Below are positions 3,381-21,325 of a stretch of 25,171 nt of DNA, in pieces. Each line of letters begins with the position of its first letter. Position 1 is the first letter of the stretch. Under the pieces are notes generated by a model that did not search any database, was not told where the DNA came from, and saw only the letters and a program-made list of their open reading frames with translations. Source of the stretch: a virus; the IMG/VR virus record IMGVR_UViG_3300035126_000873, positions 1 through 25,171 of that record; one strand, 5' to 3'. The translations under genes were made by a program, and so were the position numbers.

Positions 3381-4499
3381 ATGGCAGTTTACAACCCAAC
3401 AATTAAGAGGTACGCAAGAGACTTCGGCGTGATGGTCCCAAACGTGGAGTTCTGTCCAACAGAATATCCGCGTTTACATGCACACGTAGCCCCATACTTG
3501 CCTCTTCAGCTTTTCGTCGAGAAGCATAACGAATACTACGTTGTGCTTCAGGGCAAGGTCGTAGCTCTTGATAGCATGGGCTTCCTTGTTCCAGCCGGTT
3601 ACGCTATTGAGCAGGAGACAGCAGAAGGTCTGGCAAACTGGGGAAGCGGCAACGTTAACTTCACGTCGGCTAATGCCAGTGCTGATTTTATCCGCTACTC
3701 ACAGGCAGATGTCGACAACGGTGTAAAGAACTCTCGCGGTATTGCAGTAACGCTGAACGAGCCAGTTATCTATTCTATGATTAGAATGGATGGTAACCCT
3801 CTTCAGGCATATAGCGATAGCGACGCGACAGTCGACTGCGACGGTGCTATGACATTCGCTGTTACGATTGGTGATCATATTGGTTGTGCATCGGGCTCTT
3901 GGCTCCGCACATCGATGGACACAATCAGCCGCGCTTCAAACGCACACTTGTTCAATACGGGTTCGGCAACAGGCATGGAAGCTCGCAAGGCAGAGGATGA
4001 TGGCACTCTAGAGCGTAATGAGCACTGGCGTCTCCAGATGGAGCCAAAGACAGTCCGTACGAACTACTGCTTGATCCTCCCAGTCGTAGATTCGTATGAT
4101 CCGTTGATCGAGGGTCAGATGGTTGCTGTTGCTGATGACATCACAGACTTCGTCCGTGGTTCTCGCGTAACATTCGACCGTGACTCGAACATCGTTGTTG
4201 CAGAGCCGGAGGCAGTCACTGTAGGTGGTGCACTCCAGGCTGACATCCAGGATGCTGTAGATGCTGCGCTTGCTAGCTTGAAGAAGTACCACAACCGTAT
4301 CGTCGGTCAGGTAATCAAGATCGATACTCGTCACCCGAAGTCTCTCCTTGATAAGGTCAAGACTCGCTGGGACGCATCGATTCCGGGCTTCGAGGCTCTC
4401 GACCGCATGCCAGGTTCGGCAACTGACGGATACCCTGACAACATGCATAAAGCACAGTCAACAATGGGCGAAGTCGTAATCAGCCTATTCATGCGCTAA
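3381..4499 (+). CDS. Putative head decoration/structural protein
   Basis: 372 residues between the scaffold and the major capsid gene, where lambda-like phages place the decoration protein. A stretch near residues 45-75 (EYYVVLQGKVVALDSMGFLV, then PAGYAIE) looks like the short beta-rich segment common in phage capsid-surface proteins. The rest is mixed beta, with repeated references to a Gly-rich core and a helical stretch near 280-300 (ALQADIQDAVDAALASLKK). No signal peptide or membrane segment is seen. It is much longer than lambda D, so an exact role is uncertain; it could also be a minor capsid or vertex protein. GGAGGA lies upstream of the start, and the stop is followed directly by the GGAGT of the next gene. 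Confidence 0.5.
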   Translation: MAVYNPTIKRYARDFGVMVPNVEFCPTEYPRLHAHVAPYLPLQLFVEKHNEYYVVLQGKVVALDSMGFLVPAGYAIEQETAEGLANWGSGNVNFTSANASADFIRYSQADVDNGVKNSRGIAVTLNEPVIYSMIRMDGNPLQAYSDSDATVDCDGAMTFAVTIGDHIGCASGSWLRTSMDTISRASNAHLFNTGSATGMEARKAEDDGTLERNEHWRLQMEPKTVRTNYCLILPVVDSYDPLIEGQMVAVADDITDFVRGSRVTFDRDSNIVVAEPEAVTVGGALQADIQDAVDAALASLKKYHNRIVGQVIKIDTRHPKSLLDKVKTRWDASIPGFEALDRMPGSATDGYPDNMHKAQSTMGEVVISLFMR

Positions 4500-4512
4500 G
4501 GAGTAAACCAAG

Positions 4513-5823
4513 ATGGCTATTAGAGATATGAATCAGCTTAGAAAGATGCCATTCCACGAAGTGGACGCAAAGGCTGATGTAAAGTTCAAGGACTTTGAGT
4601 ACGCTTGGCGTTCTCCAAAGCACCAGCTTCCAGATGGCAAAGAACTGAAGATGAAGGACGTTCTGACTATGTGGGAATCCCCATTGTGGGTTCCTAAGGT
4701 CATTAACAACAACATCCAGGAAGCAATCGAGCCTATGCTTATTGCAACCAACATGTTGCAGCGTCTTCCATTCAATGGCTACGGGACATTCGTCGACATG
4801 CCAGTCATGGGTGCTGTAGACGGTGATTTCGAGGTTGGCGAGCTTGAGACGTTCCCTGAATTGCGTGTGACCTATGGTCCAGCAGCTCAGATCGCTAACG
4901 CGCCAGCCAAGTACGGTGTTGCCGTGAAGTTCTCGGATGAGGTACTCCGCTACTCTCAGTTCGACGTAATCACGATGGCAACTCGTCAGGCTGCTCGCGC
5001 TCTAGCACGTAACAAGGAAGAGAAGATTTGGAATATGTGGTACAAGCTTGCTCGTGTAACCCACGACAACTTGAGCCCATTGAATTCGGCATTTGGTACG
5101 ACAACTGGTCGCGATTTGACAGGTGCACAGAACGGTACTATCACGATGGACGACGTCTTCGAGATGTACGCACAGGTTCTAGCTCATGGTTATACCCCGA
5201 ACCTCTTGTTCGTTCATCCTTTGACATGGCTCATGTTCCTCCAGGACGCTCAGCTTCGTGCTTTCGCCCAGATGAACCAGCAGGCTTGGTACCCAGGTCA
5301 GTGGACAGGCAACCCAGCTCATCAGGATTTCCCTGCTGGCTTCGGTGGTCAGGCTCTACCGGGTGGTCAGGCTCGTTCGTGGCCTAACCAGAACGGTCAC
5401 GTTCCTAAGGATGGAGACGGAAACGTTCTACCAATCGGTGCAGATGGCGAATATCAGAACTTGCGCACAGCTCCAGTTCTACCAAGTTATCTTGGCTTGC
5501 CTTTCCGTATCGTTGTTAGCCCCTGGGTTCCTTATGATGTGTCCTCGAACACCACAAGCATCATCATGGCAGATAGCAATGAGCTTGGGTTCTACATCGA
5601 AGAGCATGGTCCTAAGTCGAATGAGTGGACAGACCCTGAGACTGACATCCTGAAGATCAAGATTTCCGAGCGTTACTTGATTCGTCCAAAGGATAGAGGC
5701 CTAGGTTTGGCAATTGCAAAGAACATTGTAGTAGACAGCAACAAGATCATCCTCCCAGCAACGGCACACATTGATGTGGCTGGAAGCATCTCTGCTGCAA
5801 CTCGTAACGTAGCTGTTCCCTAA
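4513..5823 (+). CDS. Major capsid protein, HK97 fold
   Basis: 436 residues. After a charged N-terminal arm, the protein shows the features of an HK97-type shell protein: an extended segment (LTMWESPLWVPKVINNNIQE) and an E-loop-like region (MPVMGAVDGDFEVGELETFP). A helix follows (ITMATRQAARALARNKEEKI), then an A-domain core with NLLFVHPLTWLMFLQD and IVVSPWVPYD. A Gly/Pro/Gln/Asn-rich insert (about residues 262-310) interrupts the A domain. The stop of the preceding gene is fused to the ribosome binding site (TAAGGAGT). TAATTAATTAG at its own end gives stops in all three frames and is followed by a strong terminator. Being the most abundant virion protein explains both. Confidence 0.85.
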   Translation: MAIRDMNQLRKMPFHEVDAKADVKFKDFEYAWRSPKHQLPDGKELKMKDVLTMWESPLWVPKVINNNIQEAIEPMLIATNMLQRLPFNGYGTFVDMPVMGAVDGDFEVGELETFPELRVTYGPAAQIANAPAKYGVAVKFSDEVLRYSQFDVITMATRQAARALARNKEEKIWNMWYKLARVTHDNLSPLNSAFGTTTGRDLTGAQNGTITMDDVFEMYAQVLAHGYTPNLLFVHPLTWLMFLQDAQLRAFAQMNQQAWYPGQWTGNPAHQDFPAGFGGQALPGGQARSWPNQNGHVPKDGDGNVLPIGADGEYQNLRTAPVLPSYLGLPFRIVVSPWVPYDVSSNTTSIIMADSNELGFYIEEHGPKSNEWTDPETDILKIKISERYLIRPKDRGLGLAIAKNIVVDSNKIILPATAHIDVAGSISAATRNVAVP

Positions 5824-16788: not shown

Positions 16789-17433
16789 ATGGCAAATCCG
16801 CAACTCAGCAGCCAGTTTATCAGATCATACAATAGCTTCGGCGGTGTTGATATTCGTGCTGTATTCGGCAACAAAGTAATCGGAACGCTCCAGGGTATCT
16901 CCTGGAGCGTAACCCGTGAGAAGGCCCCAATCTATACGATGGGTGACCCTGATCCTCGAGCATTCGCTAGGGGAAAGCGTGGTATCGCTGGCTCGCTAGT
17001 ATTCATCCAGTTCGACAGACATGCCCTTCTCCATGAAATGGAGTCGGCTAAGTTCTGGGCCGATAAGGATAGCTTGCGACCAGACGGCCTAGACGATGGC
17101 ACCATTTCCGCCCTTGACCCAAACTCGGGGAACAGCCCAAGTGCAACTGCCTTCCAAGCAGAGACAAACTTCGGTTCAAGTCCTCGTGACGATCAGACTG
17201 CGGTTAAGCCTTGGTTCTCAGACCAAATTCCACCATTCGATATTACACTTGCAGCAGCCAATGAGTATGGTGCGGCAGCAACAATGCGTATCTACGGTGT
17301 AGAAATTCTGAACGAAGGTTCGGGTGTTTCTATCGATGACATCGTCCTCGAGCACCAGATGACATTCGTCTGTCGTACAATCGACCCATGGCGTACAGCG
17401 AAGCAGGCCTTCGTAGATCCAAACAGTGTCTAA
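16789..17433 (+). CDS. Tail tube protein (paralogue 1)
   Basis: 214 residues, directly after the sheath gene where the tube gene is expected. SYNSFGGVDIRAVFGN, LQGISWSVTREKAPIYTMGD and GIAGSLVFIQFDRHALLHEM form the N-terminal half of the tube sandwich. PPFDITLAAANEYGAAATMR, IYGVEILNEGSG and MTFVCRTIDPWR form the rest. Residues about 95-135 are a Ser/Asn/Asp-rich insert absent from paralogue 2. Hexameric rings of this protein would form the DNA channel inside the sheath. TAAGGAGT joins it to the sheath gene, and a structured region with a terminator follows. Of the three tube-like genes this is the best candidate for the main tube subunit, because of its position, strong ribosome binding site and the terminator behind it. 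Confidence 0.82.
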   Translation: MANPQLSSQFIRSYNSFGGVDIRAVFGNKVIGTLQGISWSVTREKAPIYTMGDPDPRAFARGKRGIAGSLVFIQFDRHALLHEMESAKFWADKDSLRPDGLDDGTISALDPNSGNSPSATAFQAETNFGSSPRDDQTAVKPWFSDQIPPFDITLAAANEYGAAATMRIYGVEILNEGSGVSIDDIVLEHQMTFVCRTIDPWRTAKQAFVDPNSV

Positions 17434-18190: not shown

Positions 18191-19429
18191 ATGGCATTAG
18201 ATCAAGCAACTAGAGATAGAATTTCAGGGGATAGCGATACGATGCAGAGGAACTCCGACGCATGGTCTAGAGTCCCCGAGGGTACTCAACTGCCAAGCGG
18301 ACGGGTATTTAGTCGTAACGTCACAAATGGGTTCACTATCAATACGACTACAGAGCAGGCGTTGGCGGATGATAGATGGGTGCAGCAGAATTACGGGAAT
18401 CAATCTGGCGGCGGTACTGTAAATAGACAAGCGGCTACTCGTATTCCATCGGAGCAACAGTCCCAGCAGCCACCTGCCCCTCCAGCAAAAACAGTAAGCC
18501 GAGATGACCCCCGTCGCCCAAAAGCTGAAGAAGTTCAAGACCTTGACGCTGCACTTGCAGGACTAGGGCCGCCAACAAATCCAGCAGTTGATGATATTAC
18601 CCTAGCTCAGGTCAGGGCCATCTCAGACCCTGCACAAGCATTATGGAATTCTGGCGGGCTTAGAACACTGATGCTCGAGCAAGAAGAAAGGCGCAAGGCC
18701 GAGCTCGAAGCAGAAAAGCGGAGAAACGCAGCCAAGACTGCAAGTAAATATATCCCTCAATATTACAGTGGGACACAGGCTCAGATATACTTTGATGATG
18801 TGTTGATAGACGAAATCGTCCAGATCCAATATTCAACAGCAACTAATAAGATGCCAATCTATGGATACGCCTCCGAGCTATTCGACACAGTGGCCAGCGG
18901 CAACCTCTTGGTGCAGGGGAATTTCGTAATCAACTTTGTTGAGGCAGGTTATTTGGCAATCATTGCTGCTGCAATGCTAGAGAAGAAGTTTGGGGTAAAT
19001 GCAATCGGGAGACGCTCACAGCGCAAGTGGGTCAGCGAGGAGCGCAGAAGCGCACCAAACTCAATACTTCAGGTCTCCACAAGCCCCACGAGCATTCTCA
19101 CCCCTGGTTCATATCTAAGTAACCAGGCTATAAACCAAGTACGTGGGCTTGGGAATAAGGAATTCAGGGCATTAGCGAGAGAAGCAAACATAAACAAACT
19201 CAGTCAATCAAACCAATTCTCTGGAATTCCCCAAGGATATAACACACGTTTTGACCTGATGGCTCCATTCGATATCTACGCAGTCTTCGGAGATTACACA
19301 GATCCGGAAGCAGATCACACAGTCCGCAAGCTAAAGAATGTCTACTTGACAGGACAGGCACAAACGATTATATCTAGTGGAGAACCTGTCGGCGAGGTCT
19401 ATAATTTCATATGTCGGACGATTGAATAA
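18191..19429 (+). CDS. Tube-fold protein with disordered N-terminal arm (paralogue 3)
   Basis: 412 residues. The first about 160 are low-complexity, Gln/Pro/Ser-rich and probably disordered (PSEQQSQQPPAPPAKTV); a short charged coil follows (LEQEERRKAELEAEKRRNAA). The rest carries tube-fold signposts: YYSGTQAQIYFDDVLIDEIV, QIQYSTATNKMPIYGYASEL, GNLLVQGNFVINFVEAGYLA, then MAPFDIYAVFGDY, LKNVYLTGQAQTIISSGEPV and a final strand NFICRTIE. This resembles baseplate-hub or initiator versions of tube proteins. Its last nine codons are repeated at the end of the next gene, an HNH endonuclease. Its stop overlaps the HNH start (TAATG). Confidence 0.62.
   Translation: MALDQATRDRISGDSDTMQRNSDAWSRVPEGTQLPSGRVFSRNVTNGFTINTTTEQALADDRWVQQNYGNQSGGGTVNRQAATRIPSEQQSQQPPAPPAKTVSRDDPRRPKAEEVQDLDAALAGLGPPTNPAVDDITLAQVRAISDPAQALWNSGGLRTLMLEQEERRKAELEAEKRRNAAKTASKYIPQYYSGTQAQIYFDDVLIDEIVQIQYSTATNKMPIYGYASELFDTVASGNLLVQGNFVINFVEAGYLAIIAAAMLEKKFGVNAIGRRSQRKWVSEERRSAPNSILQVSTSPTSILTPGSYLSNQAINQVRGLGNKEFRALAREANINKLSQSNQFSGIPQGYNTRFDLMAPFDIYAVFGDYTDPEADHTVRKLKNVYLTGQAQTIISSGEPVGEVYNFICRTIE
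19403..19429 (+). repeat. Upstream copy of 27-base terminal repeat
   Basis: Nine codons at the end of the tube-like gene (NFICRTIE and stop) match 20083-20109 at the end of the HNH gene (NFIARTIE and stop): 21 of 27 bases and 8 of 9 codons agree. Three of the differing codons are synonymous. Confidence 0.75.
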
Positions 19430-20109
19430 TGGAAGATGTTAAGAAGATCTTAGAAAAGACAAGAAGTTATAAACTAACTTCTGAACAAACGGGTGTATCT
19501 GTAAAGAACTTAACTTCATGGAATCATCGACATTGGCACATCCAGATTACACCATGGCCCGAAGATAGAGTTCTAATGTTAACGACAAAATTCGCAACAA
19601 CATCTGACAAGATGCTCGCTGGCGAACTCGGGCTATCCGACAGGCAAATCCAATCGAAAGCACGACAGTTGGGCCTCTATAAAACAGAGGGCTATTTAGA
19701 TATCCTCCGTCAAGAAACAGCGAAAAATATTGCCTCAGGACCTCAGAGACACCAGTCAGAGCCAGGACAAGGACCTCCAACTAAATTTGGTCCTGAGCAT
19801 CAGAATTGGATAGCAGACCGGAGCAAAGTCAAGGGACCTAGACGTAAACAATATAGGTTCTCAGTGGTGACAGCACGGCAGGTAGATTCAGAACAGCTGG
19901 GATATTGTAATAGATGTGATACTCTTATAGAGACAAGAAAGGAATTTGATCATATAATTCCAGTAGCAATTGGCGGCTCTAGTCTTAGAGAAAATTGTCA
20001 GATGCTATGTCAACCATGTCATCTAGTAAAGACAAAGCAAGAACGCCAACTCACATACAACTATAACCCAATGTATAAAGACAATTTTATAGCAAGGACA
20101 ATTGAATAA
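19429..20109 (+). CDS. HNH homing-type endonuclease
   Basis: 226 residues. The nuclease core is at about 158-203: zinc-ligand pairs C160/C163 and C194/C197, DHIIP with D174-H175 as the catalytic pair, GG at 182-183, N189 and the CH of QMLCQPCHLVKTKQE, which is the beta-beta-alpha-metal motif. The N-terminal half holds helix-turn-helix-like stretches (TSEQTGVSVKNLTSW and DKMLAGELGLSDRQIQSKAR), likely for DNA recognition. It is a free-standing, mobile type of enzyme that cuts alleles lacking the insertion. It separates two tail genes, lacks its own ribosome binding site and is coupled by TAATG. Its last residues NFIARTIE copy the end of the preceding tube-like gene. Confidence 0.88.
   Translation: MEDVKKILEKTRSYKLTSEQTGVSVKNLTSWNHRHWHIQITPWPEDRVLMLTTKFATTSDKMLAGELGLSDRQIQSKARQLGLYKTEGYLDILRQETAKNIASGPQRHQSEPGQGPPTKFGPEHQNWIADRSKVKGPRRKQYRFSVVTARQVDSEQLGYCNRCDTLIETRKEFDHIIPVAIGGSSLRENCQMLCQPCHLVKTKQERQLTYNYNPMYKDNFIARTIE
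20083..20109 (+). repeat. Downstream copy of 27-base terminal repeat
   Basis: The copy at the end of the HNH gene. The two copies bracket the whole endonuclease gene, as expected if it arrived with a homologous 3' end or duplicated its target. Confidence 0.75.
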
Positions 20110-20117
20110 GGATGCCA

Positions 20118-20609
20118 ATGAAAGTAACACCGAAGACAGCAGCAGTTAGCGAATTTCTAGAAGCAGACGAGCCAGAAGTGAAGGAGCCAGAAGTAGAGGA
20201 AGAGGAAGAAATCCTCGATCCATTGGACGCCATGGCTAAGCAGTTCCCCGACGCCCCACCACGCAGAATGGTAGAGGGATGGAAGGAGCTTTATGGAGAC
20301 GTCTATGCATTCGTCCCAGACGCTACGTCTCTGTATTTGCTAAGACCATTACGCCGCATTGAACACAAGAACATTGCTAAGGAAATCAGGATGTTCTCCG
20401 AAGGTCCAACAGCAAGAGAAGATCCCGCTCTAGTTGAAGAAATGATGCATGAGAAGGTTGTCATGCTTTGCTTGCTGTACCCATCTGCCTCTCCTCAGTT
20501 CTTGACGATGAGTAAAGCTGGGCTAATGCCAACACTCTTTAACCTTGTGATGGAGCACTCGAAGTTCTTGTCACAGCAGAAAGCCCTAGAAGTTTGCTAC
20601 AAGCTCTAA
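20118..20609 (+). CDS. Putative tail assembly chaperone 1
   Basis: 163 residues from the ATG at 20118, preferred because AAGGA (20108-20112) lies 5 bases upstream; the ATG at 20112 overlaps that site. The N-terminal about 35 residues are acidic and Glu-rich (EPEVKEPEVEEEEEILDP). The body (EGWKELYGDVYAFVPDATSL, YLLRPLRRIEHKNIAKEI, then MMHEKVVMLCLLYP) has the pattern of small phage tail assembly chaperones, which coat the tape measure protein. Their genes sit between tube and tape measure, as here. A frameshift product, common for such chaperones, is not evident. The ribosome binding site overlaps the HNH stop codon. Confidence 0.5.
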   Translation: MKVTPKTAAVSEFLEADEPEVKEPEVEEEEEILDPLDAMAKQFPDAPPRRMVEGWKELYGDVYAFVPDATSLYLLRPLRRIEHKNIAKEIRMFSEGPTAREDPALVEEMMHEKVVMLCLLYPSASPQFLTMSKAGLMPTLFNLVMEHSKFLSQQKALEVCYKL

Positions 20610-20618
20610 GGAAAGTTT

Positions 20619-20864
20619 ATGAATCCTAACAGTAGATCAGTAAGAGCCTACAGAGGCTTTAAGTGGACAGAGAAGCTATCATTTGAATGTCTCGGGGAGG
20701 GCGATGTTTTCGTCCTCTACGAGGCAGACGGAAAGCAGGTTACAGGGGAGAAGAACGGCAAGAAGGTTACAGTCTTCAAGGCCACAAGCTCTCCTCGCAA
20801 GATCAGCGGCATCTGGGGCATTGACGCAGAGCCATACACTGAAAATGTTCCGGAGATCAAGTAA
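20619..20864 (+). CDS. Small hypothetical protein
   Basis: 81 residues, not recognised. It is basic and beta-rich: VRAYRGFKWTEKLSFECLGE, GDVFVLYEADGKQVTG, then KKVTVFKATSSPRKISGIWG. AAGGAAAG precedes the ATG at a suitable distance. It overlaps the next gene by TAATG, so the two are probably translated together. Lying between the two chaperone-like genes, it is likely a minor tail-assembly or virion protein. A frame shifted by one base (20683-20871) is a shadow. Confidence 0.5.
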   Translation: MNPNSRSVRAYRGFKWTEKLSFECLGEGDVFVLYEADGKQVTGEKNGKKVTVFKATSSPRKISGIWGIDAEPYTENVPEIK

Positions 20865-21325
20865 TGGATAGACCAGATTTATTAAAGCTCGTTAAGAACG
20901 AGGTAGTTCTAGTCGAGGAAACAACGACTGTCATCGCAAACCCAGATGGCTCTGGAGGCATCGAGATCGTCACCCAGAGGGTAGATGAGAAGCCCATCCA
21001 AGGGGCCTTAACTTTTAAGGATGAAGAGTGGGAGAACGTAGAGCCTAAGATTCTAGAAGTAGCCGAGCAGGCACGTGGTCCCGCGCACCAACATCTTAGA
21101 GAAGCTCTCGCCCCAAGAGCGACCATGGTCTACGAGACTGATACCATGAAGGTCACCTGGGGGCTAAATGGAGTAGGCGAAAGTGTCACTCCAGTATCGA
21201 CAGTCTTTGTCCGCTCAGGTAGGACCTCTGACTGGACTCGCCTTGATGGCGCCCAGTCATTCAGTTTCTCTCTAGACGTCAACGCCCCACTTCCAACAGT
21301 CCATCTCACAATGGTGCCACTATGA
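20864..21325 (+). CDS. Hypothetical protein
   Basis: 153 residues, not recognised. The first half is acidic and mixed (LLKLVKNEVVLVEETTTVIA, EEWENVEPKILEVAEQARGP). The second half is beta-rich and looks like a sandwich (MKVTWGLNGVGESVTPVSTV, TRLDGAQSFSFSLDVNAPLP). No signal peptide or membrane segment. It is coupled to the 81-residue gene by TAATG and to the following micro-ORF by ATGA. Being in the tail module, it may be a minor tail protein; no more can be said from the sequence. Confidence 0.5.
   Translation: MDRPDLLKLVKNEVVLVEETTTVIANPDGSGGIEIVTQRVDEKPIQGALTFKDEEWENVEPKILEVAEQARGPAHQHLREALAPRATMVYETDTMKVTWGLNGVGESVTPVSTVFVRSGRTSDWTRLDGAQSFSFSLDVNAPLPTVHLTMVPL

Follow-up and report, generated by a model that had tools for sequence, protein, structure and literature searches.

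A phage HNH endonuclease gene that seems to have entered the end of a tail-tube gene together with a replacement 3' end

Introduction

A homing gene that disrupts an essential gene kills the genome of its host, and such genes are therefore expected in intergenic positions, introns or inteins. Among the described systems that come close to the locus reported here are the mobile ORFs (mORFs) of fungal mitochondria, found in atp6 of Allomyces macrogynus and in atp6, atp9, cox2 and nad3 of Glomus sp., which carry a C-terminus of the host gene (PMC3630166). The inserted C-terminus is diverged, while the displaced native one is identical or nearly identical to that of an insert-free relative; in Glomus the enzymes belong to the LAGLIDADG or GIY-YIG type, with replacement tails of about 50-240 bp (PMC3630166). 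T4-like phages harbor the freestanding HNH homing endonucleases MobA-MobE, with mobE lying behind nrdA, where stop and start codons overlap as UAAUGA, and with mobE or mobA splitting nrdA or gene 60 (PMC2988022). Finally, hidden HNH insertions of the ShiLan type have been described in phage methylase genes (PMC11855218).

Here we analyze a viral contig of 25,171 bp, hereafter called the window, in which an HNH gene directly follows the third of three tail-tube genes and ends like it. A previous sequence-only reading of this DNA had claimed that the last nine codons of the tube gene recur as a copy at the end of the HNH gene, and had considered it likely that the endonuclease entered at the 3' end of the tube gene, carrying along or duplicating the tail of a related allele.

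Results

Two adjacent genes share their last strand

The features of the locus are given below in window coordinates; L004 stands for IMGVR_UViG_3300020193_000026, a syntenic relative whose aligned pieces are about 73-80% identical in DNA.

18191-19429, + strand: third tail-tube gene, 412 aa, apparently a hybrid that is native through AATTT at 19407 and has a putatively imported end beyond
19403-19429, + strand: putative replacement tail NFICRTIE-stop, imported or recoded, 21/27 against L004; its AATTT start is common to both copies
19408-20087, + strand: 680-bp insert as defined by alignment to L004, its edges uncertain by the 5 shared bases AATTT
19429-20109, + strand: HNH endonuclease gene, 226 aa, whose ATG overlaps the tube stop codon (TAATG)
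20083-20109, + strand: probable native tail of the tube gene, now the last eight HNH codons plus stop, 27/27 against L004 5670-5696
20108-20120, + strand: probable native junction (stop codon, AAGGA ribosome-binding region, ATG of the next gene), kept as in L004

The last 27 bases of the tube gene (19403-19429) are AATTTCATATGTCGGACGATTGAATAA and encode NFICRTIE and a stop, and those of the HNH gene (20083-20109) are AATTTTATAGCAAGGACAATTGAATAA and encode NFIARTIE and a stop. As the sequence-only reading had stated, both ends agree at 21/27 bases with three synonymous codon differences (TTC/TTT, CGG/AGG and ACG/ACA); TGT/GCA makes the only residue change (Cys/Ala), so that 7/8 residues are identical. 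In short spelling, the upstream copy at the tube end is TTCATATGTCGGACG, also given as TTCATATGTCGG, and the downstream copy at the HNH end is TTTATAGCAAGG. These two copies form the longest direct repeat within 18.7-20.7 kb and lie exactly 680 bp apart from start to start; because 680 is not divisible by three, the HNH frame is offset from the tube frame. A degenerate codon pattern for the tail strand has exactly two matches in the window, both of them these gene ends, where 0.01 would be expected, and 7/8 identical residues at two given gene ends would arise by chance with a probability of about 2.5e-8. The DNA likeness alone is unremarkable, 22/30 arising by chance near other HNH genes; what is striking is that the ends of two neighboring genes, aligned at their stops, encode the matching peptide in frame, together with the relative L004.

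Two contigs named as from other metagenomes, L002 and L003, carry the same arrangement with one mismatch to the window over 11.2 kb, and the sole L003 difference near the element, at 21005, lies outside it, which rules out an assembly slip. L003 (48.7 kb) is otherwise identical to the window; of its 12 differences ten cluster at 4542-5160, inside a single gene (4513-5823) that is probably the capsid gene, and this cluster is likely a recombination patch. The window also holds, at 20864-21325, a 153-aa gene with a TAATG start overlap that is absent from L004, where its neighbors are adjacent; no tail duplication was seen for it.

Among 110 other distinct viral HNH genes, chosen by motif from viral contigs and hence a motif-selected sample and no census of homing endonucleases, none ends like the gene that precedes it; the best case reaches 5/8 residues and is arginine-rich low complexity. 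Across 75,640 pairs of ORF ends in 1.9 Mb of fetched DNA, at least 7/8 residues were shared only by the window pair and by one pair in contig L120 (reverse strand, 77-504), where successive small genes end near-identically (TTTAA.AC.AAAGAGAAATGA, 24/30 bases). The latter is a repeated unit of gene end and ribosome-binding region between small non-HNH genes; it warns that likeness of gene ends in the DNA would be insufficient by itself.

An allele without the HNH gene gives the direction of the insertion

The two 50-kb contigs of the window's phage and of L004 are syntenic around the locus, and a PF01844 search of the 56-kb L004 contig found no HNH gene. The L004 tube gene (L004:4422-5696) is uninterrupted and directly adjoins the next gene. 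Its last 27 bases match the end of the HNH gene at 27/27 positions and the end of the window's tube gene at 21/27. After the stop codon, the junctions read TAA-AGGATACCAATGAAAGTAACA and TAA-GGATGCCAATGAAAGTAACA in the comparison of L004 with the window, and the junction to the next gene (20118-20609) differs in L004 by one A indel and one substitution. Since the single tube end of L004 equals the end of the HNH gene, the downstream copy would be the native tail and the upstream copy the one supplied by the insert. The relative without an HNH gene that the sequence-only reading had proposed to look for has an intact tube gene whose end is the downstream copy and whose junction to the gene at 20118 is the same, and the ribosome-binding region said to be kept is visible in both. 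Entry at the 3' end of the tube gene with a tail carried along is supported by L004 as well; the claimed direction has to be reversed, the HNH gene ending on what appears to be the original tail and the tube gene on the imported one.

Homology to L004 on the upstream side extends through GTCTATAATTT in the tube gene, and the 60 bases before the tail copy of the HNH gene match the native upstream sequence at merely 13/60 positions. The alignment shows the 680 bp to be missing from L004, and excising them from within AATTT rejoins the flanks in frame to give a tube gene ending VYNFIARTIE-stop. The simplest reading is that a 680-bp insert sits inside the codons AAT TTT and has displaced the native tail downstream, and that the present end of the tube gene either came in as part of the insert or was recoded in place. 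Identity to L004 is about 88% in the flanks, compared with 21/27 for the upstream tail copy. Counted after AATTT, the upstream copy has 6/22 changes against L004, which compares with 10/83 in the flanks (p about 0.1) and with 0/22 in the native copy (p 0.02). The apparent recoding of the upstream tail is thus short (6 changes) and statistically modest, not significantly above the flanks, and would be compatible with immunity. We prefer a tail from another phage over a change in place; no donor with an NFICRTIE tail was found among 37 tube homologues. The comparison draws on one close empty allele (L004, about 79% identical) and on one element-bearing lineage: alignment-based scans for further close relatives returned the same three contigs, and a DNA search of the phage collection gave no match.

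The tail is predicted to be the last strand of a contractile-type tube protein

A motif scan with VQG.F.INF yielded 43 matches to the tube profile, 37 of them distinct. A Y.F motif lies near the C-terminal end in 35 of these 37, and the second residue behind the F is Ala in 30 cases, Cys in three (the window and two distant homologues) and Gly in two. An alignment of 29 rows has E219, Y221 and F223 (numbered within the C-terminal domain) in every row, and these residues define an E.Y.F strand. An AlphaFold run with three sequences was uninformative (pLDDT 30), and the model built instead from the 29-row alignment has a mean pLDDT of 68, rising to about 90 in approximately the last 50 residues; it places residues 218-225 in the last, C-terminal strand. 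Foldseek searches returned tube proteins of diffocin, phage 812, phiCD508, PVC and AFP in the PDB (E down to 3.6e-06) and phage tube and structural proteins in BFVD. The product of the target gene is thus predicted to have a contractile-type tail-tube fold, the tail being its last strand, and, the insertion point lying inside this strand, the fold would lose part of it without the replacement tail. That NFI-RTIE belongs to the tube fold and not to an HNH domain had been anticipated from the sequence; it agrees with the model and with the 37 homologues, which generally carry this end, and none of the 110 other HNH genes has at its end the tail of the gene that precedes it.

The order of sheath, tube 1-3 and next genes is the same in two annotated phages; Bacillus phage KLEB27-3 and Moorella phage MTATph1, large phages with contractile tails, share target family and this gene order with the window; gp179/gp180 of Bacillus phage G match its tube protein structurally. 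Among the 37 distinct homologues, an HNH gene or a second tail behind tube 3 occurs in the window's own phage only. A pattern scan of genome contigs gave six matches, one of which is in Paenibacillus sp. TCA20. In contig L013 (reverse strand, 3723-5169) a tube-3 homologue is split into overlapping frames (3723-4508 and 4495-5169) with stretches that look by eye like peptidoglycan-binding ones, and L011 (Moorella phage MTATph1) has at 5026-5382, between two tube-type genes, a gene annotated as S-adenosylmethionine decarboxylase.

The first tube gene of the window reads FVCRTID (17359-17385), as already seen in the sequence-only reading. It is worth mentioning that this stretch and the putatively imported tail (19403-19429) both carry TTC and TGTCG, and that the match of the latter to the first tube gene is as good as that to the native tail (15/21 by hand count); because of this sharing and this equal match, conversion from the paralogous first tube gene is possible.

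The HNH protein has no close relatives in the collections searched

Pfam HNH (PF01844) matches residues 160-203 of the HNH protein with E=5.5e-10, above the gathering cut-off; the motif residues D-H, N and C-H are all present and PHROG HNH families match the product. The N-terminal half, for which a single weak match was obtained (phrog_323, residues 43-102), may bind DNA. With a GC content of 0.41 and a GC3 of 0.335, both the lowest among the 11 genes measured, the HNH gene has a composition consistent with a foreign origin. No close homologue was found in the phage collection, where tblastn gave weak domain-level matches only, nor in viral contigs outside the same phage, and HNH homologues ending NFIARTIE at unrelated loci, which would have spoken against the sequence-only reading, were not found. 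No inverted repeats bearing on the question occur at the locus.

Discussion

Taken together, our results argue, with a probability that we put at about 0.8, that an HNH gene without intron or intein was inserted into the codons of the last strand (AAT TTT ATA) of an essential tube gene as a 680-bp cassette led by a replacement 3' end. The architecture itself is well supported. Judged from the sequence, the hybrid tube gene seems to end on an imported, recoded tail, so that the tube protein would stay whole. The HNH frame, as it reads, starts at the tube stop (TAATG), runs into what we take to be the displaced native tail and apparently borrows its stop codon; behind that tail, the ribosome-binding region of the next gene appears unharmed.

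Other histories can be told for the two tails. The 27-bp tail may have been duplicated in situ when the HNH gene integrated, as a target-site or tandem duplication, and the upstream copy may later have changed under selection to escape cutting, with no foreign donor at all. The copies are indeed co-linear and merely 27 bp long, six changes are possible in place, and the paralogous first tube gene (FVCRTID) could have donated TGTCG by conversion. We nevertheless hold this to be unlikely, given that the downstream copy has no change against L004 while the upstream one has six, three adjacent bases among them (Ala to Cys), that the flanks are less diverged, that CGG is rarely used here (3% of Arg) and that the inserted tail of the fungal precedents is thought to derive from a foreign donor. 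One may also turn the scheme round and regard the upstream copy as the native tail, vertically inherited, the HNH gene and a second tail having come from an L004-like phage by co-conversion. This would leave no reason for a donor tail behind the HNH gene unless the same event had happened in the donor; moreover, homology to the empty allele is continuous through the downstream copy only, and Ala is the common state of the family. Even though 21/27 is close to the general 79% identity to L004, hence ordinary divergence for this gene pair, and stretches of 27/27 are less common (11 of about 1160 windows), such a scenario strikes us as improbable.

A self-splicing intron or an intein, with the native tail restored by splicing, seems very improbable to us. 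A conserved codon run in a structural gene is a typical site for introns with HNH genes, but no Rfam family covers the insert at the gathering threshold or at E<=10, the RNA fold of the insert has a z-score of only -1.7, nearly the entire 680 bp is taken up by the HNH frame, and the upstream tube frame is closed by a stop codon after eight codons that make a functional-looking tail. Almost negligible, in our view, is the chance that the likeness reflects mere coincidence or a stop/ribosome-binding module shared by neighboring gene ends; the small genes of L120 prove that repeated gene ends exist, yet the likeness in the window covers NFI-RTIE, a conserved strand of the tube fold, and L004 identifies the HNH end as a tube end.

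If an HNH gene did insert with a replacement tail, it is tempting to propose how. Homing and cleavage by the enzyme, like the immunity of a filled allele, are inferred; the distribution of the HNH gene, whose protein has no close relatives, shows a presence/absence polymorphism and falls short of demonstrating mobility. The enzyme would cut or nick HNH-less tube genes near the junction AATTT/ATA, repair would invade the donor from the left via the conserved tube sequence and copy the donor tail and the HNH gene, and the copied insert would rejoin the native tail of the recipient at the 5-bp match AATTT. The sealing of the right end at AATTT would explain why the HNH gene has no stop codon of its own. 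The filled allele would be immune through the alteration of both halves of the site, as 6 of the 22 bases that follow AATTT are recoded in the left copy and the left half-site is missing from the right one. The HNH protein would be expected at low level through translational coupling, a mode of expression suggested for mobE, which follows nrdA in T4.

A selfish gene seems to have entered the coding sequence of an essential virion gene and to have made good the damage by means of a spare end that would also mask the target. On this reading the cut site can be predicted with a precision of a few bases, and there is a simple signature by which more cases could be searched for, namely a diverged tail, an endonuclease and a native tail in succession; it would also link a phenomenon of fungal mitochondria to phages.

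In the T4 Mob enzymes, as in the window, an HNH gene lies beside or within an essential gene, starts over the upstream stop (UAAUG) and has a low expected expression, but the T4 genes sit between genes or split a gene into two polypeptides, and a replacement tail with a displaced native one is not described for such enzymes in PMC2988022. The ShiLan-type insertions likewise place an HNH element within phage coding sequence without intron or intein; there, the insert is read through in the frame of the host gene with the HNH in another frame, whereas in the window the host gene ends on the replacement tail without read-through. No phage case that combines a replacement tail with displacement of the native one was found in the literature searched, which was largely open-access. 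The likeness to the fungal mORFs goes further: in both, an endonuclease ORF that is not part of an intron lies close to the 3' terminus of an essential gene, a diverged replacement C-terminus is in frame with the host gene, and the native one downstream is closer to the empty relative (27/27 in the window, against 21/27 for the inserted one). ORF and gene are in phase in some of the fungal cases. The window differs in having an HNH enzyme, a tailed phage as host, a replacement tail of 24 sense bases and an endonuclease ORF whose last codons and stop are those of the native tail. On balance, we lean, if only slightly, towards regarding it as a phage counterpart of the fungal tail-carrying mobile ORFs, in which homing genes would settle in essential virion genes without intron or intein by means of a recoded, cleavage-resistant 3' end, and end on the displaced native tail, leaving the downstream operon undisturbed.
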